This document shows positions 47,801-59,336 of a DNA stretch of 64,000 nucleotides, one piece after another. Source of the stretch: Rhodoferax sp. (GTDB lineage Bacteria; Pseudomonadota; Gammaproteobacteria; Burkholderiales; Burkholderiaceae_C). The stretch spans positions 1 through 64,000 of the forward strand of contig NZ_JANXMU010000039.1 in NCBI RefSeq assembly GCF_025354435.1, written 5' to 3'. Under the pieces are notes generated by a model. The model saw nothing but the letters and a program-made list of their open reading frames with translations. It had not been told where the DNA came from and searched no databases. Every line of letters begins with the position of its first letter. The stretch's first letter is position 1. The position numbers were made by a program, and so were the translations under genes.

Positions 47801-47836
47801 AACCGCTAGCGGCACCTCACCCCGCGCCGCCACCCG

Positions 47837-47903
47837 TCTTTACGCTTTCTATACGCCCCACCCCCACCTCTCTATCCCGTTTTTACGCCCGCTTACCTAA
47901 GCT
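47837..47903 (+). promoter_or_regulatory. Candidate KdpE operator/promoter upstream of kdpF
   Basis: TTTACGC-n4-TATACGC direct repeat (11-bp period) at 47839-47856; TTTTTACGCC at 47880; TAAGCT at 47898. Confidence 0.6.
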
Positions 47904-47936: not shown

Positions 47937-48041
47937 ATGGATGTTCTATGGATCGCAGGTTTAGGCCTGCTGTGGGGGGTGATGGCACTCATGGTGAAGG
48001 GCTTCCAGAAGCTCGAAAAACCCAAGGGAGGCCGCGCATGA
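47937..48041 (+). CDS. 34-aa membrane micro-ORF preceding kdpF
   Basis: [38 protein letters not shown] overlap with kdpF start; not in ORF track. Confidence 0.65.
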   Translation: MDVLWIAGLGLLWGVMALMVKGFQKLEKPKGGRA

Positions 48042-48136
48042 TTCCGCTCGAAATGCTCTATGGCCTGGGGGGTTTGTGCGCCGTGCTGTTGCTGGCGTAT
48101 TTGGTGTATGCGCTGGTCTGCGCTGAGGAATTCTGA
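48038..48136 (+). CDS. kdpF: K+-transporting ATPase subunit KdpF
   Basis: [32 protein letters not shown], directly before kdpA. Confidence 0.88.
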
Positions 48137-49935
48137 TGAACGCGAATGCCTGGGGCCTGTTAGCCCTTTTTCTCGTGGTGCTGCTCGCGGCCGCCTGGCC
48201 GCTGGGCCTGTGGCTGGCGCGGCTGGCCAACGGCAACGTGCCGGGCTGGATGCACAAGGTCGAAGCGCCTTTGTACAAATTGGCGGGCACCTCGCCCGAC
48301 AAATCCATGCACTGGGCGCACTACGCGCTGGCGCTGCTGGCCTTCAACACGCTGGGCGCGCTGGTGGTGTACGCGCTGCAACGCCTGCAGGTATGGCTGC
48401 CGCTGAACCCGCAGGGCATGGCGGCGGTATCGGCCGACTCGTCTTTCAACACGGCGGTGAGTTTTGTCGCCAACACCGACTGGCAGGGCTATGCGGGCGA
48501 ATCCACCATGGGCTACTTGACGCAGATGCTGGGCCTGGCGGTGCAGAACTTCTTCTCTGCCGCCACCGGCATGGCCGTGGTGTTTGCGCTGATGCGCGGC
48601 TTTGCGGCGCGGTCTACCGCCGTGATTGGCAACTTCTGGGCCGACATCGTGCGGGTGACCGCCTGGGTGCTGGTGCCGCTGTCGCTGGTGTTCGCGGTGG
48701 TGTTGGTCGGCCAGGGCGTGATCCAGAACTTTGACGGCTACAAGGACGTGACCACCCTCGAAGTCACGGCCTTCCAGCAGCCCAAAGTGGACGCAGCCGG
48801 TGCGCCGGTGCTGGACGACAAGGGCCAACCGGTGCTGGAAGATGCCAAGACCCCAACGCAAACCCTGCCCATGGGCCCGGTCGCGTCGCAAGAGGCCATC
48901 AAGATGCTGGGCACCAACGGTGGCGGTTTCTTTAACGCCAACTCGGCCCACCCGTACGAGAACCCCTCGGCGCTGACCAACTTCCTGCAGATGCTGGCGA
49001 TTTTCCTGATCCCCGCCGCGCTGTGCTTCACCTTTGGCAGCGTGGTGGGTGACAAGCGCCAGGGCTGGGCCGTGCTGTCGGCGATGACCATCCTGTTCGT
49101 GATTGCGGTCATCGCCATCATGCCCGCCGAGCAAGCCGGCAACCCGCTGCTGCCACCGCTGGGCGTGGACCAGATGGCTAGCAGCCTGCAGTCGGGCGGC
49201 AATATGGAAGGCAAGGAGCTGCGCTACGGCATCGCCGCCAGCAGCCTGTTTGCGGTGGTCACCACGGCCGCTTCGTGCGGCGCGGTGAATGCCATGCACG
49301 ACTCGTTCACCCCGCTGGGTGGCATGGTGCCGCTGGTGATGATGCAGCTGGGCGAGGTGGTGTTTGGCGGCGTGGGTTCGGGCCTGTACGGCATGCTGAT
49401 CTTCGCCATCCTGGCGGTGTTCATCGCCGGGCTGATGATTGGCCGCACCCCCGAGTACCTGGGCAAGAAGATCGAGGTGCATGAGATGAAGCTGACCTCC
49501 ATCGCCATCCTGGTGACACCCATCGTGGTGCTGGCGGGCACCGCCGTGGCGGTGATGGCCACCGGCGGGCTGGCGGGTATTGCCAACCCCGGCGCGCATG
49601 GTTTCTCGGAGATTCTGTATGCGCTGACCTCGGCCGGTAACAACAACGGCAGCGCGTTTGCGGGGCTGTCGGCCAACACACCGTTCTACAACATCCTGCT
49701 GGGCATCGTGATGTGGATCGGGCGCTTCGGGATGATCGTGCCGGTGTTGGCCATCGCCGGTTCGCTGGCCGCCAAGCAGCGGCTGCCGGTGACCTCGGGC
49801 ACGCTGCCCACACACGGCCCGCTGTTTGTCACCCTGCTGATCGGCACCGTGCTGCTGGTGGGCTTGCTGAACTACGTGCCCGCGCTGGCCCTGGGCCCGA
49901 TGGTCGAACACCTGGTTTTATGGGCACAACCATGA
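48136..49935 (+). CDS. kdpA: K+-transporting ATPase subunit A
   Basis: [39 protein letters not shown]. Confidence 0.98.
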
Positions 49936-50017: not shown

Positions 50018-52105
50018 ATGAACACCCAAAAGTCTTTGGTGTTGCCCGGCTCCTCACTATTTCACCCTGCCCTGCTCAAGCCCGCGCTGGCCGCGGCCTT
50101 CACCAAGCTCAGTCCCCGCGTGCAATGGCACAACCCGGTGATGTTCGTGGTCTACATCGGCAGCATCTTGACCACGCTGTTTGGCGTGCTGGCGCTGCAA
50201 AGCGGCGACGGCTCGGCCAGCTTCGTGCTGTCGGTGGCGGTGTGGCTGTGGTTCACGGTGCTGTTCGCCAACTTTGCCGAAGCCCTGGCCGAAGGGCGCG
50301 CCCAGGCGCAGGCTTCTTCGCTGCGCGGCCTGAAGAAAAGCACCATGGCCAAGAAACTGGCCAAGCCGGTGCACGGCTCTAGCTGGTTGCCGGAAGAAGC
50401 CGAGAACCTACGTAAGGGCGACGTGGTGCTGGTCGAGGCGCATGACCTGATTCCGCTGGACGGCGAAGTCATCGAAGGCGTGGCCTCGGTGGACGAGAGC
50501 GCCATCACCGGCGAATCGGCACCGGTGGTGCGCGAATCGGGTGGCGACTTTTCCTCCGTTACCGGCGGCACCCGCGTGTTGTCCGACTGGCTGGTGGTGC
50601 GCATCGGCGTGAACCCCGGCGAGTCCTTCCTGGACCGCATGATCAGCATGGTCGAAGGCGCCAAGCGCCAGAAGACGCCGAACGAGATCGCCCTGACGAT
50701 TCTGCTGGTGGCGCTGACCATCGTGTTTCTGGTGGTGACCGTGACGCTGCTGCCGTTCTCCAGCTTTAGCGTGCAAGCCGCCGGTGCGGGCACCGTGGTG
50801 AGCATGACGGCGCTGATCGCGCTGCTGGTCTGCCTGATCCCCACCACCATCGGCGGCCTGCTGTCCGCCGTGGGTGTGGCCGGCATGAGCCGCATGATGC
50901 AGGCGAACGTGATCGCCACCTCGGGCCGCGCGGTAGAAGCCGCGGGCGACGTGGACGTGCTGCTGCTGGACAAAACCGGCACCATCACCCACGGTAACCG
51001 CCAGGCCTCGGCCTTCTTCCCCGCGCCCGGCGTGAGCGAAGCCCAGCTGGCGGCCTGCGCCGCACAGGCCTCGCAGGCCGATGAAACCCCCGAAGGCCGC
51101 AGTATCGTGGCCCTGGCCCAGCGCCTCGGTGCGGTGCAGCCGCTGGTCGGCACCACCACGGAAGTGCCTTTTACCGCGCAGACCCGCATGAGCGGTATCG
51201 ACCTGCAAATGGCCGACGGCCATTTGCGCGTGCTGCGCAAGGGCGCGGTGGACGCGATCCGCAAGTACGTGCAGGGCCAAAACGGCCGCATGCCCACCGA
51301 AGTCGGCAAGAACGCCGACGACGTGGCGCGCCGCGGCAGCACGCCGCTGGTGGTGGTGGAAGGCAGCACGGTACTCGGCGTGGTCGAGCTGAAAGACATC
51401 GTCAAGGCCGGTATCAAGGAGCGCTTTGGCGAGCTGCGCCGCATGGGCATCAAGACGGTGATGATCACCGGCGACAACAAGCTCACCGCTGCCGCCATCG
51501 CCGCCGAAGCCGGGGTCGATGACTTTCTGGCCGAGGCCACGCCCGAGCAAAAGCTGGCCCTGATCCGCCAGTACCAAAGCGAAGGCCGCCTGGTCGCCAT
51601 GACGGGCGACGGCACCAACGATGCCCCCGCGCTGGCCCAGGCCGACGTGGCCGTGGCCATGAACAGCGGCACCCAGGCCGCCAAGGAAGCCGGGAACATG
51701 GTGGATCTGGACTCCAACCCCACCAAGCTGCTGGAGATTGTGGAAACCGGCAAGGCGCTGCTGATGACGCGCGGCTCGCTGACCACCTTCTCGATTGCCA
51801 ACGACGTGGCCAAGTACTTCGCCATCATCCCGGCGATCTTCGTCAGCACCTACCCGCAACTGAAAGCGCTGAACGTGATGGACCTGGGCAGCCCGTCCTC
51901 GGCCATCTTGTCGGCCGTTATTTTCAACGCGCTGATCATCATGTTCCTGGTGCCACTGGCGCTGAAGGGCGTGCGCTACCGGCCGGTGGGAGCCGCCGCG
52001 CTGCTGCGCCGCAACCTGCTGATTTACGGCCTGGGCGGTTTGGTGGTGCCCTTCATCGGCATCAAGGCGATTGACATGGTTTTAGTCGCCATACACATGG
52101 TTTAA
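50018..52105 (+). CDS. kdpB: K+-transporting P-type ATPase subunit B
   Basis: [45 protein letters not shown]. Confidence 0.99.
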
Positions 52106-52115
52106 GGAATTCAAA

Positions 52116-52688
52116 ATGAACGCGATTCTTCGTCCTACCCTGGTTTTATTCACGGCGCTCACGCTGCTCACCGGCGTGGTCTACCCCTTGGTTGTCACCG
52201 GCGTGGGCCAGGCGGCTTTTCCCAAAGAAGCCGCGGGCAGCCTGATCCTGCGCGACGGCAAGCCCGTGGGCTCCGAGCTGATCGGCCAGAACTTCAGCGA
52301 CCCCAAGCATTTTTGGGGTCGCCCCTCGGCCACCGGCCCGCAGCCGTACAACAGTGCGGCCTCCAGCGGCTCCAACCAGGGGCCGCTGAACCCGGCGCTG
52401 GTGGAGGCGGTCAAGGGCCGCATCCAGGCCCTGCGTGATGCCGATCCTGGCAATACCGCGCCAGTGCCGGTGGACCTGGTGACGGCCTCCGCCAGCGGGC
52501 TGGACCCGCACATCAGCCCGGCCGCCGCACAGTACCAAACCAGCCGCGTGGCCAAAGCCCGTGGCCTGCCACAAGCCCAGGTGGCGGCCTTGGTGCAGCA
52601 GCAGACCGAGCGCCCCCTGGCGGGCTTTCTGGGTGAAGCACGGGTGAATGTGCTGGTGCTGAACCTGGCGCTGGAAGCTCTGCACTAA
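52116..52688 (+). CDS. kdpC: K+-transporting ATPase subunit C
   Basis: [30 protein letters not shown]. Confidence 0.98.
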
Positions 52689-52707: not shown

Positions 52708-52827
52708 ATGCCACCGGAATTTGCTGCGCTGCTGTGCGCCCTGGCCGCCCTGTGCCTGCCGTTGCTGCTGGCCTGGGGCATCGTGGCCTGGCAAAGCCGC
52801 GCCAAACCACCCCGGAGCCGACGGTGA
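52708..52827 (+). CDS. 39-aa membrane micro-ORF
   Basis: MPPEFAALLCALAALCLPLLLAWGIVAWQSRAKPPRSRR*; abuts next CDS; not in ORF track. Confidence 0.5.
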   Translation: MPPEFAALLCALAALCLPLLLAWGIVAWQSRAKPPRSRR

Positions 52828-52829
52828 AC

Positions 52830-53942
52830 ATGCGCGCCACCGGGGTGTGGCTCCGCACGGCCCGCCTGCAGGACACCACCGCCCTGGGCCAACTGGAGCA
52901 GCGCACCTTCAGCGCAGACCGCATCTCCGCACGCAGTTGGCGGCGGCTGGTGGCCAGTCCCTCGGCCACCGTCACCCTGGCCCAGAACGCACACGGCCTG
53001 GCCGGGGCCAGCGTGCTGCTGCACAGCGCCTGCAGCTCGGTGGCCCGCCTGTACTCCATCGCCGTAGACCCGGCGGTGCGCGGCCAGGGCGTGGCCCGGC
53101 AGCTGCTGGAGGCGGCGATGGAACGGGCGCGGGCCACCGGGGCCTCCGTGCTGCGGCTGGAAACCCGGGTCGACAACACTGCGGCCCAAGCCCTGTTCAC
53201 CCGCTGCGGCTTCGTTCCACTAGACCGCAAACCCGGCTACTACGCCGACGGCATGGACGCGCTGCGTTACCAGGCATCGCTGTGGAACCTGGGCAAGGCG
53301 GCGGTGGCGGTGGCCCTGCGCGCACCGTATTACGGCCAGACGCTGGACTTCAGTTGCGGCCCCTGCGCCCTGCTGATGGCCATGGCCGCCCTGGACCCAC
53401 GCACCGAGCTGGACCGCGCGGCCGAAATCCGCATCTGGCGCGAAGCCACCACCGTCTTCATGGCCGCAGGCCACGGCGGCTGTGGCCCGTTTGGGCTGGC
53501 GCTGGCCGCCGTACAGCGCGGCTTTGCGGCCACGGTGTACGCCCCCGCCGGGGCCACGCTGTTCACCGACAGCGTGCGCGACCCGCGCAAAAAGGAGGTC
53601 ATTGCGCTGGTGGAGTCGGACTTTCGCGCCGAGATCGTGGCGGCGGGTGCCGATGTCATCGAGTCCCCCGTCTCGCCCGAGCGCATTGCCGACCACCTGC
53701 AGCGCGGTGGCGTGCCCATTGTGCTCATCAGCCTGTGGCGGCTGCACGGCGAAAAAGGCCCGCACTGGGTGGTGGTGACCGGCTTTGATGGCGCGGTGTT
53801 CCGCATTCTCGACCCCATCGCCCCACCCCCGGATGGCGACCCCGGTGTCGCCGTCAGCATCGACGAATTCCAGCGCATCACGCGATACGGCCGCCGCAAG
53901 CAAACGGCGGCGGTCATTCTTACCAACAAAGGCCCCTTGTGA
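52830..53942 (+). CDS. GNAT acetyltransferase fused to C39-type papain-like peptidase
   Basis: VARLYSIAVDPAVRGQGVARQLLEAAMERAR (GNAT); YYGQTLDFSCGPCALLMAMAAL ... KGPHWVVVTGFDG ... ILDPIAPP (C39 Cys/His/Asp). Confidence 0.88.
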   Translation: MRATGVWLRTARLQDTTALGQLEQRTFSADRISARSWRRLVASPSATVTLAQNAHGLAGASVLLHSACSSVARLYSIAVDPAVRGQGVARQLLEAAMERARATGASVLRLETRVDNTAAQALFTRCGFVPLDRKPGYYADGMDALRYQASLWNLGKAAVAVALRAPYYGQTLDFSCGPCALLMAMAALDPRTELDRAAEIRIWREATTVFMAAGHGGCGPFGLALAAVQRGFAATVYAPAGATLFTDSVRDPRKKEVIALVESDFRAEIVAAGADVIESPVSPERIADHLQRGGVPIVLISLWRLHGEKGPHWVVVTGFDGAVFRILDPIAPPPDGDPGVAVSIDEFQRITRYGRRKQTAAVILTNKGPL

Positions 53943-55420
53943 GTTCTACCCATCTGATCGTGGTTGAAAAACGTTCCGACTTCCGCTGGCCCGACCCCGG
54001 CGGCCGCGTCATGACGGCGGAGGAATATGTGTCCGAGCGGGCTGAGGCCCGTACCCGCCAGCGCAAGGTGATCAACCTGTGCCGCAGCTACGACTACCTC
54101 AGCATGGGCTATTACGGCTCGCTGCTGGCCGAGGCCCGCGGGGACCGGGTGACACCCAGCGTGGAGACCATTCTGGAGCTACAGCAAAAAGCCCCCGACT
54201 CGCCCAAACTGGCGGGCCTGAACCGACTGATCGCCGGGCTGGACGAGGTGCCGCGCTCGGTGAATGCGCTGCGCTTCCACGTGTTTTTTGGCCACATCGA
54301 AGACCCGGACCTGGCCGAGCTGGCCCGCCGCAGTTTTGAGCTGTTCCGCTGCCCGCTGCTGGAGATCGCGCTGGAGCGGCTGGATCCGCGCGATGTAGAT
54401 CCGGCACGCGACGAGGTGTTTCTGCAGGCGCTAGAGCGCTTTACCCACCGCGCCTGGCGGCCCGCGCTGGTGCAGAGCGCGCCGCGCATGGACCTGGCCA
54501 TCCTGCACGACCCGAAAGACCCGCTGCCGCCGTCAAGCGCCGCCACGCTGCAGAACTTCATCCGCGTGGGGGGCAGCATGGACATCGCGGTGGAGCTGAT
54601 CGAGAAGAAAGACTTTTCGCGGCTGACCCAGTTCGACGCGCTGTTCATCCGCGAAACCACCGCGGTTGACCACCACACCTTCAAGTTCGCCAAGCGCGCC
54701 GCTGCCGAGGGCATGCCGGTGCTGGACGACCCGCAGTCCATCCTGCGCTGCACCAACAAAGCCTACCTGGCCGAGCTGCTGCAGGGCAGCGGCATTGCCA
54801 CGCCGCGCACCCAGTTGGTCAGCCGCCGCACCCTGCCCAAGCTGGAGGATCGGATGGCCTACCCGGTGGTGCTGAAGGTGCCCGACGGCTCGTTCAGCCG
54901 CAGCGTCAAAAAGGCCGAGAACTGGAAGCAGCTCCAGGACATCGCCCTGGCCATGTTCAAGGAGTCGGAAATCATCCTGGCGCAAGAGTTCATGTACACC
55001 GACTTCGACTGGCGCGTGGGCATCCTGGCCGGGGAGCCGCTGTTTGTGGCGCGCTACTTCATGACCCGCGACCACTGGCAGATCCTCAGGCACGGTGCCA
55101 ACGGCCAGCACGAAGAAGGCCGCACCGAAGCCGTGGCCATCGCCGACACACCGGCCCATGTGCTGGATGCCGCCGTGCACAGCGCCAAGCTGGTGGGCGA
55201 CGGGTTCTACGGCGTGGACCTGAAGGAAAACGCCTCGGGCGTGTACGTGATCGAGATCAACGATAACCCGAACGTAGACGCAGGCATGGAAGACGCGATG
55301 CTGGGCGACGCGCTGTACCGCACGCTGCTAGGCCACCTGCTGCGCCAATTTGAAGCACCGCATGCCGCGGCCCAGGGCATTGCATTGGCCAGCAGTGCGC
55401 ACAAGACGGGCACGGACTGA
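53939..55420 (+). CDS. RimK-like ATP-grasp ligase with N-terminal RLAN-type domain
   Basis: VVLKVPDGSFSRSVKKAENW, DWRVGILAGEPLFVARYFM, YVIEINDNPNVDAGMED. Confidence 0.88.
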   Translation: MSSTHLIVVEKRSDFRWPDPGGRVMTAEEYVSERAEARTRQRKVINLCRSYDYLSMGYYGSLLAEARGDRVTPSVETILELQQKAPDSPKLAGLNRLIAGLDEVPRSVNALRFHVFFGHIEDPDLAELARRSFELFRCPLLEIALERLDPRDVDPARDEVFLQALERFTHRAWRPALVQSAPRMDLAILHDPKDPLPPSSAATLQNFIRVGGSMDIAVELIEKKDFSRLTQFDALFIRETTAVDHHTFKFAKRAAAEGMPVLDDPQSILRCTNKAYLAELLQGSGIATPRTQLVSRRTLPKLEDRMAYPVVLKVPDGSFSRSVKKAENWKQLQDIALAMFKESEIILAQEFMYTDFDWRVGILAGEPLFVARYFMTRDHWQILRHGANGQHEEGRTEAVAIADTPAHVLDAAVHSAKLVGDGFYGVDLKENASGVYVIEINDNPNVDAGMEDAMLGDALYRTLLGHLLRQFEAPHAAAQGIALASSAHKTGTD

Positions 55421-55432
55421 ATGGCCGCCCTG

Positions 55433-55499
55433 TCTTTACGCATTCTTTATGCGTTCGGGCCGACTTTCAGCGCCATTTTTACGCCGCTGTTTTTATGCT
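55433..55499 (+). promoter_or_regulatory. Candidate KdpE operator/promoter upstream of the 97-aa ORF-kdpDE
   Basis: TTTACGC-n4-TTTATGC direct repeat (11-bp period) at 55435-55452; TTTTTACGCC at 55476; TATGCT at 55494; same spacing as 47837-47903. Confidence 0.6.
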
Positions 55500-55539: not shown

Positions 55540-55833
55540 ATGGGCTTTTTTTCTGCTGTGGCGCATGCACCCACCCACCCCGTGTGGGAACAAATGAACG
55601 TGCTGGTCGCCAGCCGCGATGCCCTGCTGGCGCGCCGGGCCTTGCTGGCCTGCCCCGGTGCCGCCATCGTGCGCTGCCTGCCCATGCACCAGGATGCCAA
55701 GGTGCAGCTGGAAATACGCTTTCCCGCCGGACACGGCTCTGCGGTCATTGGGCAAATTCTGGCCTGCCTGCCGCACGGCGAGATCGGGGGTATCTGCAGC
55801 CCCGAGCCGCTGCCCCCGGCGCGCAAGTTTTAG
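55540..55833 (+). CDS. 97-aa protein of unknown function preceding kdpD
   Basis: MGFFSAVAHAPTHPVWEQMNVLVASRDALLARRALLACPG...; RBS-like caggag upstream. Confidence 0.7.
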   Translation: MGFFSAVAHAPTHPVWEQMNVLVASRDALLARRALLACPGAAIVRCLPMHQDAKVQLEIRFPAGHGSAVIGQILACLPHGEIGGICSPEPLPPARKF

Positions 55834-55887: not shown

Positions 55888-58647
55888 TTGGGTAGCCCAG
55901 ACGACTCCCGCCCCGACCCCGACGCACTGCTGCTGCGCCTGCAAGAGCAGGACGTGGCCCGTGCGCGCGGGCGTTTGCGCATCTACTTCGGGGCCAACGC
56001 AGGCGTAGGCAAAACCTACGCCATGCTCAGTGCCGCACAGCAGGCGCGCCAGGCCGGGCGTGAGGTACTGATCGGCGTGGTGGAAACCCATGGCCGCAAG
56101 GAAACGGCGGCATTGCTGCACGGCCTGGAACAGTTGCCCCTGCGCCAGTTGCCGTACCGGGGCCGCAGCCTGCCCGAATTCGACCTGGACGCGGCCCTGG
56201 TGCGCAAGCCCGCCATCCTGCTGGTCGATGAGCTAGCCCACACCAATGTGGAGGGCTCGCGCCACCCCAAGCGCTGGCAGGATGTGCAGGAGCTGCTGGC
56301 CGCCGGCATCGAAGTCTGGTCGGCCATCAATGTGCAGCACCTGGAGAGCCTGAACGGCACCGTGGGGGCCATCACCGGCATCCGCGTGACGGAGACCGTG
56401 CCCGACACCCTGCTCGACAGCGCCGACGAAATCATCCTGGTGGATGTGACCCCCGACGAGCTCACCGCCCGGCTGCAGGCGGGCAAGGTCTACCTGCCCC
56501 AGCAGGCCGCCCGTGCCGCGCAAAACTTCTTCCGCAAGGGCAACCTGATTGCGCTGCGCGAAATCGCCCTGCGCCGCACGGCGGAGCACGTGGAAGACGA
56601 TGTGCGCAGCTACCGGGTAGAGCAGTCGGGCAGCGCAGCCGACCTGCCACCGGTGTGGAACACCTCGGGTGCCATCCTGGCCTGCATCGGCCCGCATGAA
56701 GGCGCGGAGCAGACCGTGCGCACCGCCGCGCGGCTGGCCGGGCAGCTCAATGTGCGCTGGCATGCCGCGTATGTGGAAACCCCACTGCTGCAGCGCCTGG
56801 AAGCCACCGAGCGCGACCGTATCCTGACGGTGCTGCAACTGGCCGAAACCCTGGGGGCCGACACGGCAGTGCTGACCGGCAGCGATGTGGCCGCCGCGCT
56901 GGTGCGCCAGGCCCAGACCCTGAACTGCGCCACCCTGGTGGTGGGCCGCCCCCGCCTGCCGCCGCAATGGCAGCTGTGGCGGCGCTGGGCACCTACGCTG
57001 ACACGCCAGCTCGCCACCCTGGCCCCCACACTGGACGTGCTGGAGGTCGGCGGCAGCCCCAGCGCCCGCCGCCTGGCCCGCGCCTGGCTGCCCACCGACA
57101 CCGACGGTGACATCCGCCGTAGCACCTGGCAGCCCTATGCCGCCGCCCTGGGCGGGGCCGTGTTGGTCACCCTGCTGGCCACCCCGCTGGCGAACCGGCT
57201 GGACCTGGCCAATATCGTCATGCTGTTTTTGGTAGCGGTGGTGCTGGTGGCCGTGCGTTACGGGCGCGCCGCAGCGGCCCTGGCCGCCGTACTGAATGTG
57301 GCCGCGTTCGACTTCTTTTTTGTACCGCCGCGCTTTTCGTTTGCGGTCAGCGACGTGCAGTACCTGGTGACCTTTGTGGTGATGCTGGCGATTGGCTTGC
57401 TGACCGGCCAGCTCACGGCCGGGCTGCGCTTTTCGGCCCGCATCGCCGCCAGCCGCGAACGCCGGGCGCAGGCCCTGTTCGACCTGACGCGGGAGCTGTC
57501 CGCCGCGCTGCTGACCAGCCAGGTGGTGGAGATCGGCCAGGCCGCCGTACAGCGCCTGTTCACCCAGGTGGAGGGCGTGGCCTTTGACCCGGTCAAAGGC
57601 GGCAAGGTGATGGTGCTGGTGGCCGAGCACAAGGACGAAGGCACGGGCCAACTACGCTTGCCCGCCCTGCTACCGCACGACTTCGACGCGGGCATCGCCG
57701 AATGGGTTCTGCGTACCGGCCACAGCGCCGGGCTGGCCACCAACACCCTGCCCGCCCACCCCTGGCATTGCGTGCCACTGCAAGCCCCCATGCGGGTACG
57801 CGGCGTGCTGGCGCTCAAACCCAGCCAGGCGCGCTGGCTGCTCATCCCCGAGCAGCAGCAACTGCTGCAAACCCTGGCCCGGCAAATCGCCATTGCGCTG
57901 GAGCGCGTGCACTACGTGGAGGTGGCGCAAGAAGCCGTGGTGCATATGGAGTCCGAGCGCCTGCGCAACACCTTGCTGGCCGCGATTTCGCACGATGTGC
58001 GCACCCCGCTCACCGCCTTGATGGGCCTGGCCGAGTCGCTGCAAACCTCGCAGCCGCCCCTGGCCCCCGTCCAGGCCGACACTGCACAGGCCATGGTGGT
58101 GCAGGCGCGTGAACTCTCGGCCCTGGTCACCAACCTGCTGGACATGGCGCGGCTGCAAAACGGCGGTGTGGCCCTGCGCAGCGACTGGCAGTCGGTGGAA
58201 GAACTGGTGGGCTCTGCCATCCGCGCCGCAGGCCCGGCTCTGCGCGGCCAGCATGTGGACACCGATGTGCCCGCCGACCTGCCGTTGGTCGAATTTGATG
58301 CGGTGCTGATGGAGCGCGTGCTGGTCAATCTGCTGGAGAACGCCGCCAAATACGGTGCGGCTCCCATCGCTTTGACCGCCCGCGCCACCCCCACCAGCCT
58401 GGTGCTGGCGGTGCGCGACCACGGCCCCGGCCTGCCGCCCAAGCTGCGGGGCCGCGAGGCCGAGCTGTTCGACAAATTCACCCGCGGCAGCACCGAGTCC
58501 ACCACCCCCGGCGTGGGCCTGGGTCTGGCCATCTGCAAAGCCATCGTCGATGCGCACCGGGGCCACATTGTGGCCACCAACGCGCCAGACGGTGGCGCAG
58601 AATTCACCCTCACCTTGCCGCGCCGACCCGCACCGGAACTATCTTGA
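55888..58647 (+). CDS. kdpD: Osmosensitive K+ channel histidine kinase KdpD
   Basis: FGANAGVGKTYAMLSAAQQAR; HDVRTPLTALMGLAESL; TTG start with AAGGAG RBS. Confidence 0.97.
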   Translation: MGSPDDSRPDPDALLLRLQEQDVARARGRLRIYFGANAGVGKTYAMLSAAQQARQAGREVLIGVVETHGRKETAALLHGLEQLPLRQLPYRGRSLPEFDLDAALVRKPAILLVDELAHTNVEGSRHPKRWQDVQELLAAGIEVWSAINVQHLESLNGTVGAITGIRVTETVPDTLLDSADEIILVDVTPDELTARLQAGKVYLPQQAARAAQNFFRKGNLIALREIALRRTAEHVEDDVRSYRVEQSGSAADLPPVWNTSGAILACIGPHEGAEQTVRTAARLAGQLNVRWHAAYVETPLLQRLEATERDRILTVLQLAETLGADTAVLTGSDVAAALVRQAQTLNCATLVVGRPRLPPQWQLWRRWAPTLTRQLATLAPTLDVLEVGGSPSARRLARAWLPTDTDGDIRRSTWQPYAAALGGAVLVTLLATPLANRLDLANIVMLFLVAVVLVAVRYGRAAAALAAVLNVAAFDFFFVPPRFSFAVSDVQYLVTFVVMLAIGLLTGQLTAGLRFSARIAASRERRAQALFDLTRELSAALLTSQVVEIGQAAVQRLFTQVEGVAFDPVKGGKVMVLVAEHKDEGTGQLRLPALLPHDFDAGIAEWVLRTGHSAGLATNTLPAHPWHCVPLQAPMRVRGVLALKPSQARWLLIPEQQQLLQTLARQIAIALERVHYVEVAQEAVVHMESERLRNTLLAAISHDVRTPLTALMGLAESLQTSQPPLAPVQADTAQAMVVQARELSALVTNLLDMARLQNGGVALRSDWQSVEELVGSAIRAAGPALRGQHVDTDVPADLPLVEFDAVLMERVLVNLLENAAKYGAAPIALTARATPTSLVLAVRDHGPGLPPKLRGREAELFDKFTRGSTESTTPGVGLGLAICKAIVDAHRGHIVATNAPDGGAEFTLTLPRRPAPELS

Positions 58648-59336
58648 CCACTCCTGTTGCCGTACTGATTGAAGACGAACCCCACATCCGCCGCTTTGTG
58701 CGCGCCGCGCTGGAGGCCGAAGGCTGGCAGGTGTTCGAGGCCGACACCGCCAAACAAGGTTTGACCGAGGCGGGCACCCGCAAGCCCGACCTGCTGGTGC
58801 TGGACCTGGGCCTGCCCGACGGCGACGGGCTGGACGTACTGCGCGACGTGCGCAGCTGGTCGGCCGTGCCCATCATCGTGCTGTCGGCCCGCAGCGACGA
58901 GGCCGACAAAATCGCCGCGCTGGATGCCGGGGCCGACGACTACCTGACCAAGCCCTTCGGCGTGGGCGAACTGCTGGCCCGGGTGCGCGCCAACCTGCGG
59001 CGACCGCGCGCAGCAGAGAGCGATCCCGACCCGGTGTTCCGCTTCGGCACGGTCGAGGTGGACCGCACCGCCCGCCTGGTGCGCCGGGGCGGTGCCGAGG
59101 TGCACCTCACGCCCATCGAATACCGCCTGCTGTCGGTGCTGGTGACCAACGCGGGCCGCGTGCTCACCCACCGCCAACTGCTGCGCGAAGTCTGGGGCCC
59201 CGCCCACACCCAGCAAAGCCACTACCTGCGCATCCACATGGGCCACCTGCGGCAAAAGCTGGAGGCCGACCCGGCGCAGCCGGTGCACCTGCTGACGGAG
59301 ACGGCCGTGGGGTACCGGCTGCTGGTGCAGCCGTAA
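58644..59336 (+). CDS. kdpE: OmpR-family response regulator KdpE
   Basis: VLIEDEPHIRRFVRAALEAEGWQVFEA; DYLTKPFGVGELLARVRA; TTG start overlapping kdpD stop. Confidence 0.96.
   Translation: MTTPVAVLIEDEPHIRRFVRAALEAEGWQVFEADTAKQGLTEAGTRKPDLLVLDLGLPDGDGLDVLRDVRSWSAVPIIVLSARSDEADKIAALDAGADDYLTKPFGVGELLARVRANLRRPRAAESDPDPVFRFGTVEVDRTARLVRRGGAEVHLTPIEYRLLSVLVTNAGRVLTHRQLLREVWGPAHTQQSHYLRIHMGHLRQKLEADPAQPVHLLTETAVGYRLLVQP

Follow-up and report, generated by a model that had tools for sequence, protein, structure and literature searches.

The window analysed here, a 64,000-nucleotide stretch of Rhodoferax sp. contig NZ_JANXMU010000039.1, carries a kdp locus in which a three-gene cassette lies between kdpC and kdpD and encodes a 39-aa single-transmembrane (TM) protein (the micro-ORF), a GNAT domain fused to a C39-like peptidase (GNAT-C39), and an RLAN-RimK ATP-grasp ligase. 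We propose, at about even chances, that in Burkholderiales this cassette serves the Kdp response to K+ limitation as an accessory module, which is induced by KdpE and makes a small acylated peptide-type product. The regulatory component of this proposal, the predicted KdpE control of the cassette, is well supported by operator-like motifs; the chemistry of the enzyme pair we infer from its protein families. The Kdp system is usually treated as kdpFABC plus kdpDE. What is new is that the enzyme pair falls under a predicted KdpE regulon and that two small protein families associate with Kdp; no paper in the literature searched links RLAN, DUF3335, or the enzyme pair to kdp.

Predicted KdpE regulon

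The KdpE site footprinted in E. coli has the form TTTATA-N5-TTTACA (PMC3264566). A 22-bp direct repeat, KTYTTKAYRC-N-TTYTTKAYRC, is common to the regions upstream of kdpF in the studied group, and the 4.66-Mb genome of the window contains only two exact matches to this pattern, at position 47836 before kdpF and at position 55432 before o97-kdpDE, where o97 denotes a gene for a 97-aa protein (see below). Box 1 (GTCTTTACGCTTTCTATACGC, 47836..47856, forward strand), an 11-bp direct repeat 5' of kdpF, is built like the E. coli site defined by experiment (PMC3264566). Box 2 (GTCTTTACGCATTCTTTATGC, 55432..55452, forward strand) scores 29.9 bits with a position weight matrix (PWM) built from ten kdpF/kdp-operon promoters only. 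Each box comprises two TTTA-type half-sites 11 bp apart 5' of a transcript. The published E. coli site scores 34.0 bits with the same matrix, inside the range of the training set (PMC3264566).

Similar operators precede copies of the cassette in other genomes. At locus L021 the micro-ORF of the cassette is preceded by a box of its own (31.0 bits), and PWM sites at an empirical P<=0.01 were found 5' of 7 out of 30 loci that do not adjoin kdp (0.3 expected), all 7 of them betaproteobacterial. The simplified pattern TTKAY-N6-TWKAY, searched on the gene strand, is present at 11 of 15 unlinked betaproteobacterial loci (among them two enzyme-free loci with o97 and one locus at a contig edge) and at 14 of 17 linked ones, compared with 1 of 18 non-betaproteobacterial loci; in random windows its frequency is 83 of 8000 (1.0%). 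Against the second background, upstream regions of called genes in the betaproteobacterial loci, it matched 10 of 243 regions, and 9 of these 10 are kdp or cassette regions. In Massilia, two tandem boxes are located 32 bp apart even though its RLAN protein belongs to a separate clade, together with gammaproteobacterial and Kiritimatiellota sequences; KdpE control was therefore probably acquired separately in this genus, and probably more than once overall. KdpE control was also considered for gammaproteobacteria possessing both systems and was rejected, as they have no upstream boxes and the only matches fall inside the RLAN coding sequence.

In the window, the micro-ORF (MPPEFAALLCALAALCLPLLLAWGIVAWQSRAKPPRSRR, 52708..52827), GNAT-C39 (52830..53942), and RLAN-RimK (53939..55420) genes follow kdpC (52116..52688; NF001454 1.8e-82, PF02669 3e-75) on the forward strand with spacings of 19, 2, and -4 nt, respectively: the ATG of GNAT-C39 at 52830 begins 2 nt after the micro-ORF stop codon TGA (52825-52827), and the end of GNAT-C39 and the start of RLAN-RimK share GTGA (53939-53942). 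The initial annotation of this DNA had described the three genes between kdpC and kdpD and their nearly gapless junctions and had inferred co-transcription with K+ import. Coordinates and domain profiles confirm the gene order and junctions, and co-transcription with kdpFABC appears likely from the short gaps, the restriction of KdpE boxes to positions before kdpF and after RLAN, and a sigma-70 and terminator scan in which no sigma-70-like promoter was found, a scan that was itself uninformative. The 467-bp gap between the RLAN gene and kdpD, where that annotation overlooked two elements, is occupied by box 2 and the conserved gene o97. The genome has one copy each of the GNAT-C39 and RLAN-RimK genes.

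Linkage of the cassette to kdp across genomes

The distribution of the cassette was assessed in a family sample of 151 genomes and a class sample of 284 genomes, and its arrangement in 60 named loci. In the family sample, RLAN is encoded in 7 genomes, DUF3335 (the C39-like domain) in 4, all of which also have RLAN, and kdpC in 58; kdp is present in 7 out of 7 RLAN genomes vs. 58 out of 151 overall (P=0.001). The gene-neighborhood survey suggested in the initial annotation revealed linkage of the cassette to kdp in about 16 Burkholderiales genomes and in three arrangements, so that it is not confined to this strain. The cassette is located between kdpC and kdpD in the window, L021, and L022; 3' of kdpE in about 10 Acidovorax genomes, with the gene order kdpE-o97-micro-ORF-GNAT-C39-RLAN; and divergently from kdp in L011, L036, and L037, with L034 lying at a contig edge. 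In the divergent loci of G073, Eoetvoesiella, and a Burkholderiales metagenome-assembled genome (MAG), a Gcw_chp porin gene lies in between and the GNAT is encoded without the C39 domain. This recurrent linkage, together with the KdpE-like operators 5' of several unlinked copies, upholds the earlier proposal of a coupling to K+ import.

In the class sample, RLAN occurs in 63 of the 284 genomes (22%) and kdpC in 34, and the 9 genomes having both compare with 7.5 expected by chance. A general RLAN-kdp association was rejected on this ground, and because the association disappears at the class level, the kdp link is a trait of one lineage, a Burkholderiales group, and not of RLAN/GNAT-C39 systems generally. 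The RLAN proteins of L034, L036, and L037, which represent Nitrosovibrio (Nitrosomonadaceae), Eoetvoesiella (Alcaligenaceae), and a Burkholderiales MAG, are near-identical, and the three loci share the same micro-ORF-GNAT-RLAN block; this near-identity shows recent horizontal transfer.

Two small Kdp-associated proteins

The aligned micro-ORF products have a conserved TM segment and a basic tail, and homologs hold the same position in other genomes, which makes the micro-ORF more than a chance reading frame. In Acidovorax, the ratio of nonsynonymous to synonymous polymorphism (pN/pS) for the micro-ORF is 0.45 in frame vs. 0.78 and 1.28 in the other frames, and that for the o97 homologs is ~0.52 in frame vs. 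0.81 and 1.51; these ratios indicate that both genes are under purifying selection. Using profile A2, we found that the well-supported micro-ORF homologs in the family sample all come from kdp-positive genomes, most of them directly 3' of kdpC or 5' of kdpD, and profile A3 detected o97 in nine genomes of the same sample at E < 1e-9, all kdp-positive. Altogether, 15 out of 15 genomes with the micro-ORF or o97 have kdp (P=1.7e-7). Among the other 283 genomes of the class sample, none has the micro-ORF. It is also missing from RLAN systems outside the betaproteobacterial group, and at RLAN loci away from kdp it was detected only in L034, at a contig edge.

The profile search also found the micro-ORF in kdp loci of genomes that lack both RLAN and DUF3335. 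Enzyme-free loci have the order kdpC-o97-micro-kdpD in G040, which belongs to the genus of the window, and in G133, G123, and G100; kdpC-micro-kdpD in G072 and G004; and kdpA-C-B-micro-kdpD in G121 and G005, while in G137 the micro-ORF is divergent from kdp. In G070, o97 follows kdpE; it lies away from kdp only in G021 and G089, both kdp-positive, where it is accompanied by a micro-ORF-like gene. Such stand-alone pairs, away from kdp in kdp-positive genomes, lie behind a KdpE-like box at L121:9157-9736 and L122:10020-10352, both on the reverse strand.

The o97 gene (55540..55833, forward strand) has no match to a Pfam or NCBIfam family. The AlphaFold model of its product is a b-a-b-b-a-b plait (predicted local distance difference test score, pLDDT, 76.6), the best PDB fold matches (PduA, EF-2, CutA1, DUF3240, and PII) reach only E ~3e-3, and a sequence search of the PDB returned no real relatives. 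An S6-like role of o97 as a RimK substrate was rejected, as its model is a generic alpha/beta plait and it has no conserved C-terminal Glu. The micro-ORF resembles KdpF and other single-TM accessory peptides of transporters in being a short TM peptide encoded in a kdp operon; however, it is found mostly 3' of kdpC (or kdpB) and 5' of kdpD and has no KdpF motif. It was rejected as a displaced kdpF, since the window has its own kdpF (48038..48136, forward strand; read from the sequence and directly overlapping the kdpA start) and the micro-ORF sits 3' of kdpC.

The initial annotation had viewed the micro-ORF as a possible substrate or membrane partner. Its presence in enzyme-free kdp loci and absence from non-betaproteobacterial RLAN systems speak against the substrate role. 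Enzyme substrate and precursor peptide were both rejected as the principal interpretation of the micro-ORF because of its occurrence in enzyme-free kdp loci, and a membrane partner of Kdp fits better. Because it occurs without the enzymes and is tied to kdp, the micro-ORF is better read as a Kdp accessory peptide, and both small genes look like Kdp accessory genes and not obligatory substrates.

Enzyme pair and proposed pathway

The GNAT-C39 protein combines a RimI-like GNAT domain (PF00583, 1.6e-16) with DUF3335 (PF11814, "Peptidase_C39 like," 4.6e-68, 229 bits). Among 38 homologs, Q170, C176, and H312 are invariant and D328 is 95% conserved, so that the Cys-His-Asp triad C176, H312, and D328 is intact. 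Its nearest solved GNAT relatives are protein N-terminal acetyltransferases, such as RimI and Naa30, and some loci carry a GNAT-only form without the C39 peptidase. The 493-aa RLAN-RimK protein matches PF14401 (5.3e-36, 124 bits) and PF08443 (2.3e-7, 31 bits) and keeps the ATP-grasp residues across 46 homologs; in its AlphaFold model (pLDDT 81), the C-terminal ~300 residues match LysX/ArgX and RimK. Judged by these conserved active sites, both enzymes look active, and an amino-acid or peptide ligase activity can be predicted for RLAN-RimK. The acylation, trimming, and ligation chemistry suggested in the initial annotation thus finds support at the sequence level, as does its coupling to K+ import; of its overall interpretation, the role of the micro-ORF as substrate is the part that found no support.

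An RLAN domain N-terminal to a RimK-like ATP-grasp domain, adjoined by a GNAT fused to a papain-like DUF3335 domain, is the architecture that Iyer et al. in 2009, and also the Pfam RLAN entry, reportedly predicted to form an amino-acid or peptide ligation system. The two genes, their domain architecture, and their adjacency are the same here; what differs from the pair elsewhere is its location in a kdp operon or behind KdpE-like operators and its association with the micro-ORF and/or o97. No function or demonstrated product of GNAT-C39/RLAN-RimK systems was found in the literature searched.

We propose the following pathway. Under K+ shortage, KdpD/KdpE would activate the predicted box before kdpF, giving a kdpFABC-micro-ORF-GNAT-C39-RLAN-RimK transcript, and the second predicted box would drive o97-kdpD-kdpE; relocated modules in relatives mostly carry KdpE-like boxes of their own. 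Motif evidence supports this step well. RLAN-RimK would then use ATP to join one or more amino acids, probably of glutamate type, to the carboxylate of an amino-acid or peptide acceptor, the RimI-like GNAT would acylate the free amino end, and the C39 domain, where present, would hydrolyze or trim the product, as we infer from the respective families. More tentatively, the product would be a small acylated peptide-type metabolite for K+ shortage, comparable to N-acetylglutaminylglutamine amide (NAGGN), and not a tail on a fixed protein partner. It is probably made when K+ is short, because a KdpE-type switch precedes the copies of several relatives, even away from kdp. The micro-ORF, with its one TM segment, and o97 would act as accessory proteins of Kdp, probably by tuning KdpFABC or KdpD, and would be older in kdp loci than the enzymes or remain there after enzyme loss.

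A metabolite is preferred over a protein tail for three reasons: GNAT/RLAN systems outside the group show no conserved small protein partner adjoining them, their neighbors elsewhere include DUF2817 and 2OG-Fe(II) oxygenases, and, by analogy, the best-known partnership of a GNAT and an ATP-grasp enzyme makes the osmolyte NAGGN. Synthesis of NAGGN, which serves in osmotic stress, similarly combines an acyltransferase with an ATP-grasp ligase (N-acetylglutaminylglutamine synthetase, TIGR03103); however, the cassette has another ATP-grasp subfamily, two genes in place of one fusion, and no amidotransferase, and TIGR03103 matches GNAT-C39 at only 19.3 bits (cut-off 569, E 3.3e-4), in the GNAT part only. 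The C-terminal ATP-grasp domain and fold are shared with RimK of the RimABK system for S6 glutamylation, whereas the RLAN N-terminal domain and the GNAT-C39 partner are not, and neither a RimB retropepsin nor RimA adjoins the cassette; scores with RimK models remain below their cut-offs (PRK10446, 18.7 bits vs. 331; TIGR00768 rimK_fam, 72.6 vs. 143.4). The Rlo operon of Pseudomonas aeruginosa encodes the retropepsin RloA, the inactive transglutaminase RloB, and the ATP-grasp protein RloC and has an osmotic-stress phenotype (PMC12239564). It likewise pairs a peptidase with an ATP-grasp protein, but these belong to another peptidase clan and another ATP-grasp type, the transglutaminase is a membrane protein, and no kdp connection is mentioned (PMC12239564).

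As side observations on the enzyme pair, a DUF2817 gene with weak AstE/AspA similarity adjoins GNAT-C39 and is divergent from RLAN at L045:1984-3111 and L053:8752-9846 (both on the reverse strand) and, by clustering only, at L065 and L079, with gammaproteobacteria and Kiritimatiellota as the hosts overall; it possibly encodes a hydrolase that reverses the ligase reaction. A 2OG-Fe(II) oxygenase gene adjoins RLAN in Alteromonas and Haliea (L066:9299-9961 and L072:9943-10614).

We tentatively put the chances somewhat below even that Burkholderiales answer K+ starvation with an acylated amino-acid or peptide product of KdpE-controlled GNAT-C39/RLAN-RimK plus two small partners of KdpFABC/KdpDE. 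If so, the product would be either a K+-sparing solute or a modification of the Kdp machinery, new in either case, and the Kdp system would gain a biosynthetic arm as well as two small proteins that are conserved. Placement in a predicted KdpE regulon in one lineage gives a common enzyme pair, for which the literature searched offered no function, a concrete inducing condition, K+ limitation, and the culturable hosts Acidovorax and Massilia make the product and substrate of the predicted ligase searchable and hence the proposal testable.

Alternative explanations

Several observations weigh against a KdpE-controlled accessory module. Boxes are missing from two kdp-positive betaproteobacteria (L038 and L010), Massilia polaris (L080) has one but its assembly yielded no kdpC, and the alphaproteobacterial Zavarzinia (L040, L041) have kdp and the cassette with neither box nor linkage; the absence of association at the class level points the same way. 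The first PWM matches were already known when the simplified pattern was settled, and the positive loci are partly close relatives that represent ~3 to 5 independent lineages. The boxes are predictions, OmpR/PhoB-type regulators likewise use 11-bp repeats, and the pN/pS values of the small genes are only moderately low. In M. polaris, the RLAN gene itself (L080:9600-10725) looks broken; kdp-positive Massilia species keep it intact.

Under the same KdpE regulation, the enzymes might modify a protein, by C-terminal tailing through RLAN-RimK and/or N-terminal acetylation through GNAT, with a Kdp subunit, KdpD, o97, the micro-ORF, or a ribosomal protein as the target. RimK-like tailing is a serious rival, if rather unlikely: protein termini are the targets of the nearest relatives with solved structures (RimK, LysX/ArgX with LysW, and RimI/Naa30-type GNATs), and the micro-ORF is directly 5' of GNAT in every kdp-linked locus checked, but the alignments show no conserved Glu/Asp acceptor at the end of any small partner, the small genes and the enzymes each occur without the other, and the GNAT-only form drops the peptidase. 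Alternatively, the pair could be a passenger horizontally inserted at a permissive kdp site and merely co-transcribed there, with no role in K+ homeostasis. The transfer seen among Nitrosovibrio, Eoetvoesiella, and the Burkholderiales MAG, the ABC transporter occupying the same gap in L021, and the lack of a class-level association would all agree with this; nevertheless, it is made less likely by the KdpE-like boxes that precede unlinked cassettes and that also occur in a second RLAN clade, and linkage is kept in three different arrangements and not at one insertion site, so that we regard this explanation as improbable. A graspetide-like system, or one of another class of ribosomally synthesized and post-translationally modified peptides, in which the micro-ORF (or o97) encodes a precursor that is cleaved by C39 and modified by the ATP-grasp enzyme and GNAT, is suggested by the small gene directly 5' of the C39-GNAT and ATP-grasp genes and by the C39 peptidases that cleave precursor leaders in other systems. 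It is highly improbable: the micro-ORF has a conserved TM segment and basic tail and neither a conserved GG cleavage site nor a variable core, genomes without the enzymes carry it too, sequence and fold searches place the RLAN ligase with RimK/LysX-like proteins, and no precursor with a leader and variable core was seen obligatorily adjoining the enzymes.

Other features of the kdp loci

The remaining kdp genes of the window, all on the forward strand, are kdpA (48136..49935; TIGR00680, 1.2e-232), kdpB (50018..52105; TIGR01497, E=0), the sensor kinase gene kdpD (55888..58647; PF02702, 1.1e-94; NF007793, 1011 bits), and the response regulator gene kdpE (58644..59336; NF007820, 4.2e-107, exceeding the cut-off). 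A second micro-ORF at 47937-48041 overlaps the kdpF start, and a similar reading frame is present 5' of kdpF in several relatives. In L021, genes for an ABC permease (PF00528) and its ATPase (ABC_tran plus AAA_assoc_C, PF09821) lie between kdpC and the cassette (L021:5378-8565). A gene for a Gcw_chp (PF09694) porin-like protein, a possible outer-membrane partner of Kdp, recurs in kdp loci before kdpD or directly 5' of kdpA, as at L021:12201-13049, L123:9348-10412, L036:8178-8885 (reverse strand), and L127:9986-10759 (reverse strand), the last recognized by its sequence and not scanned.

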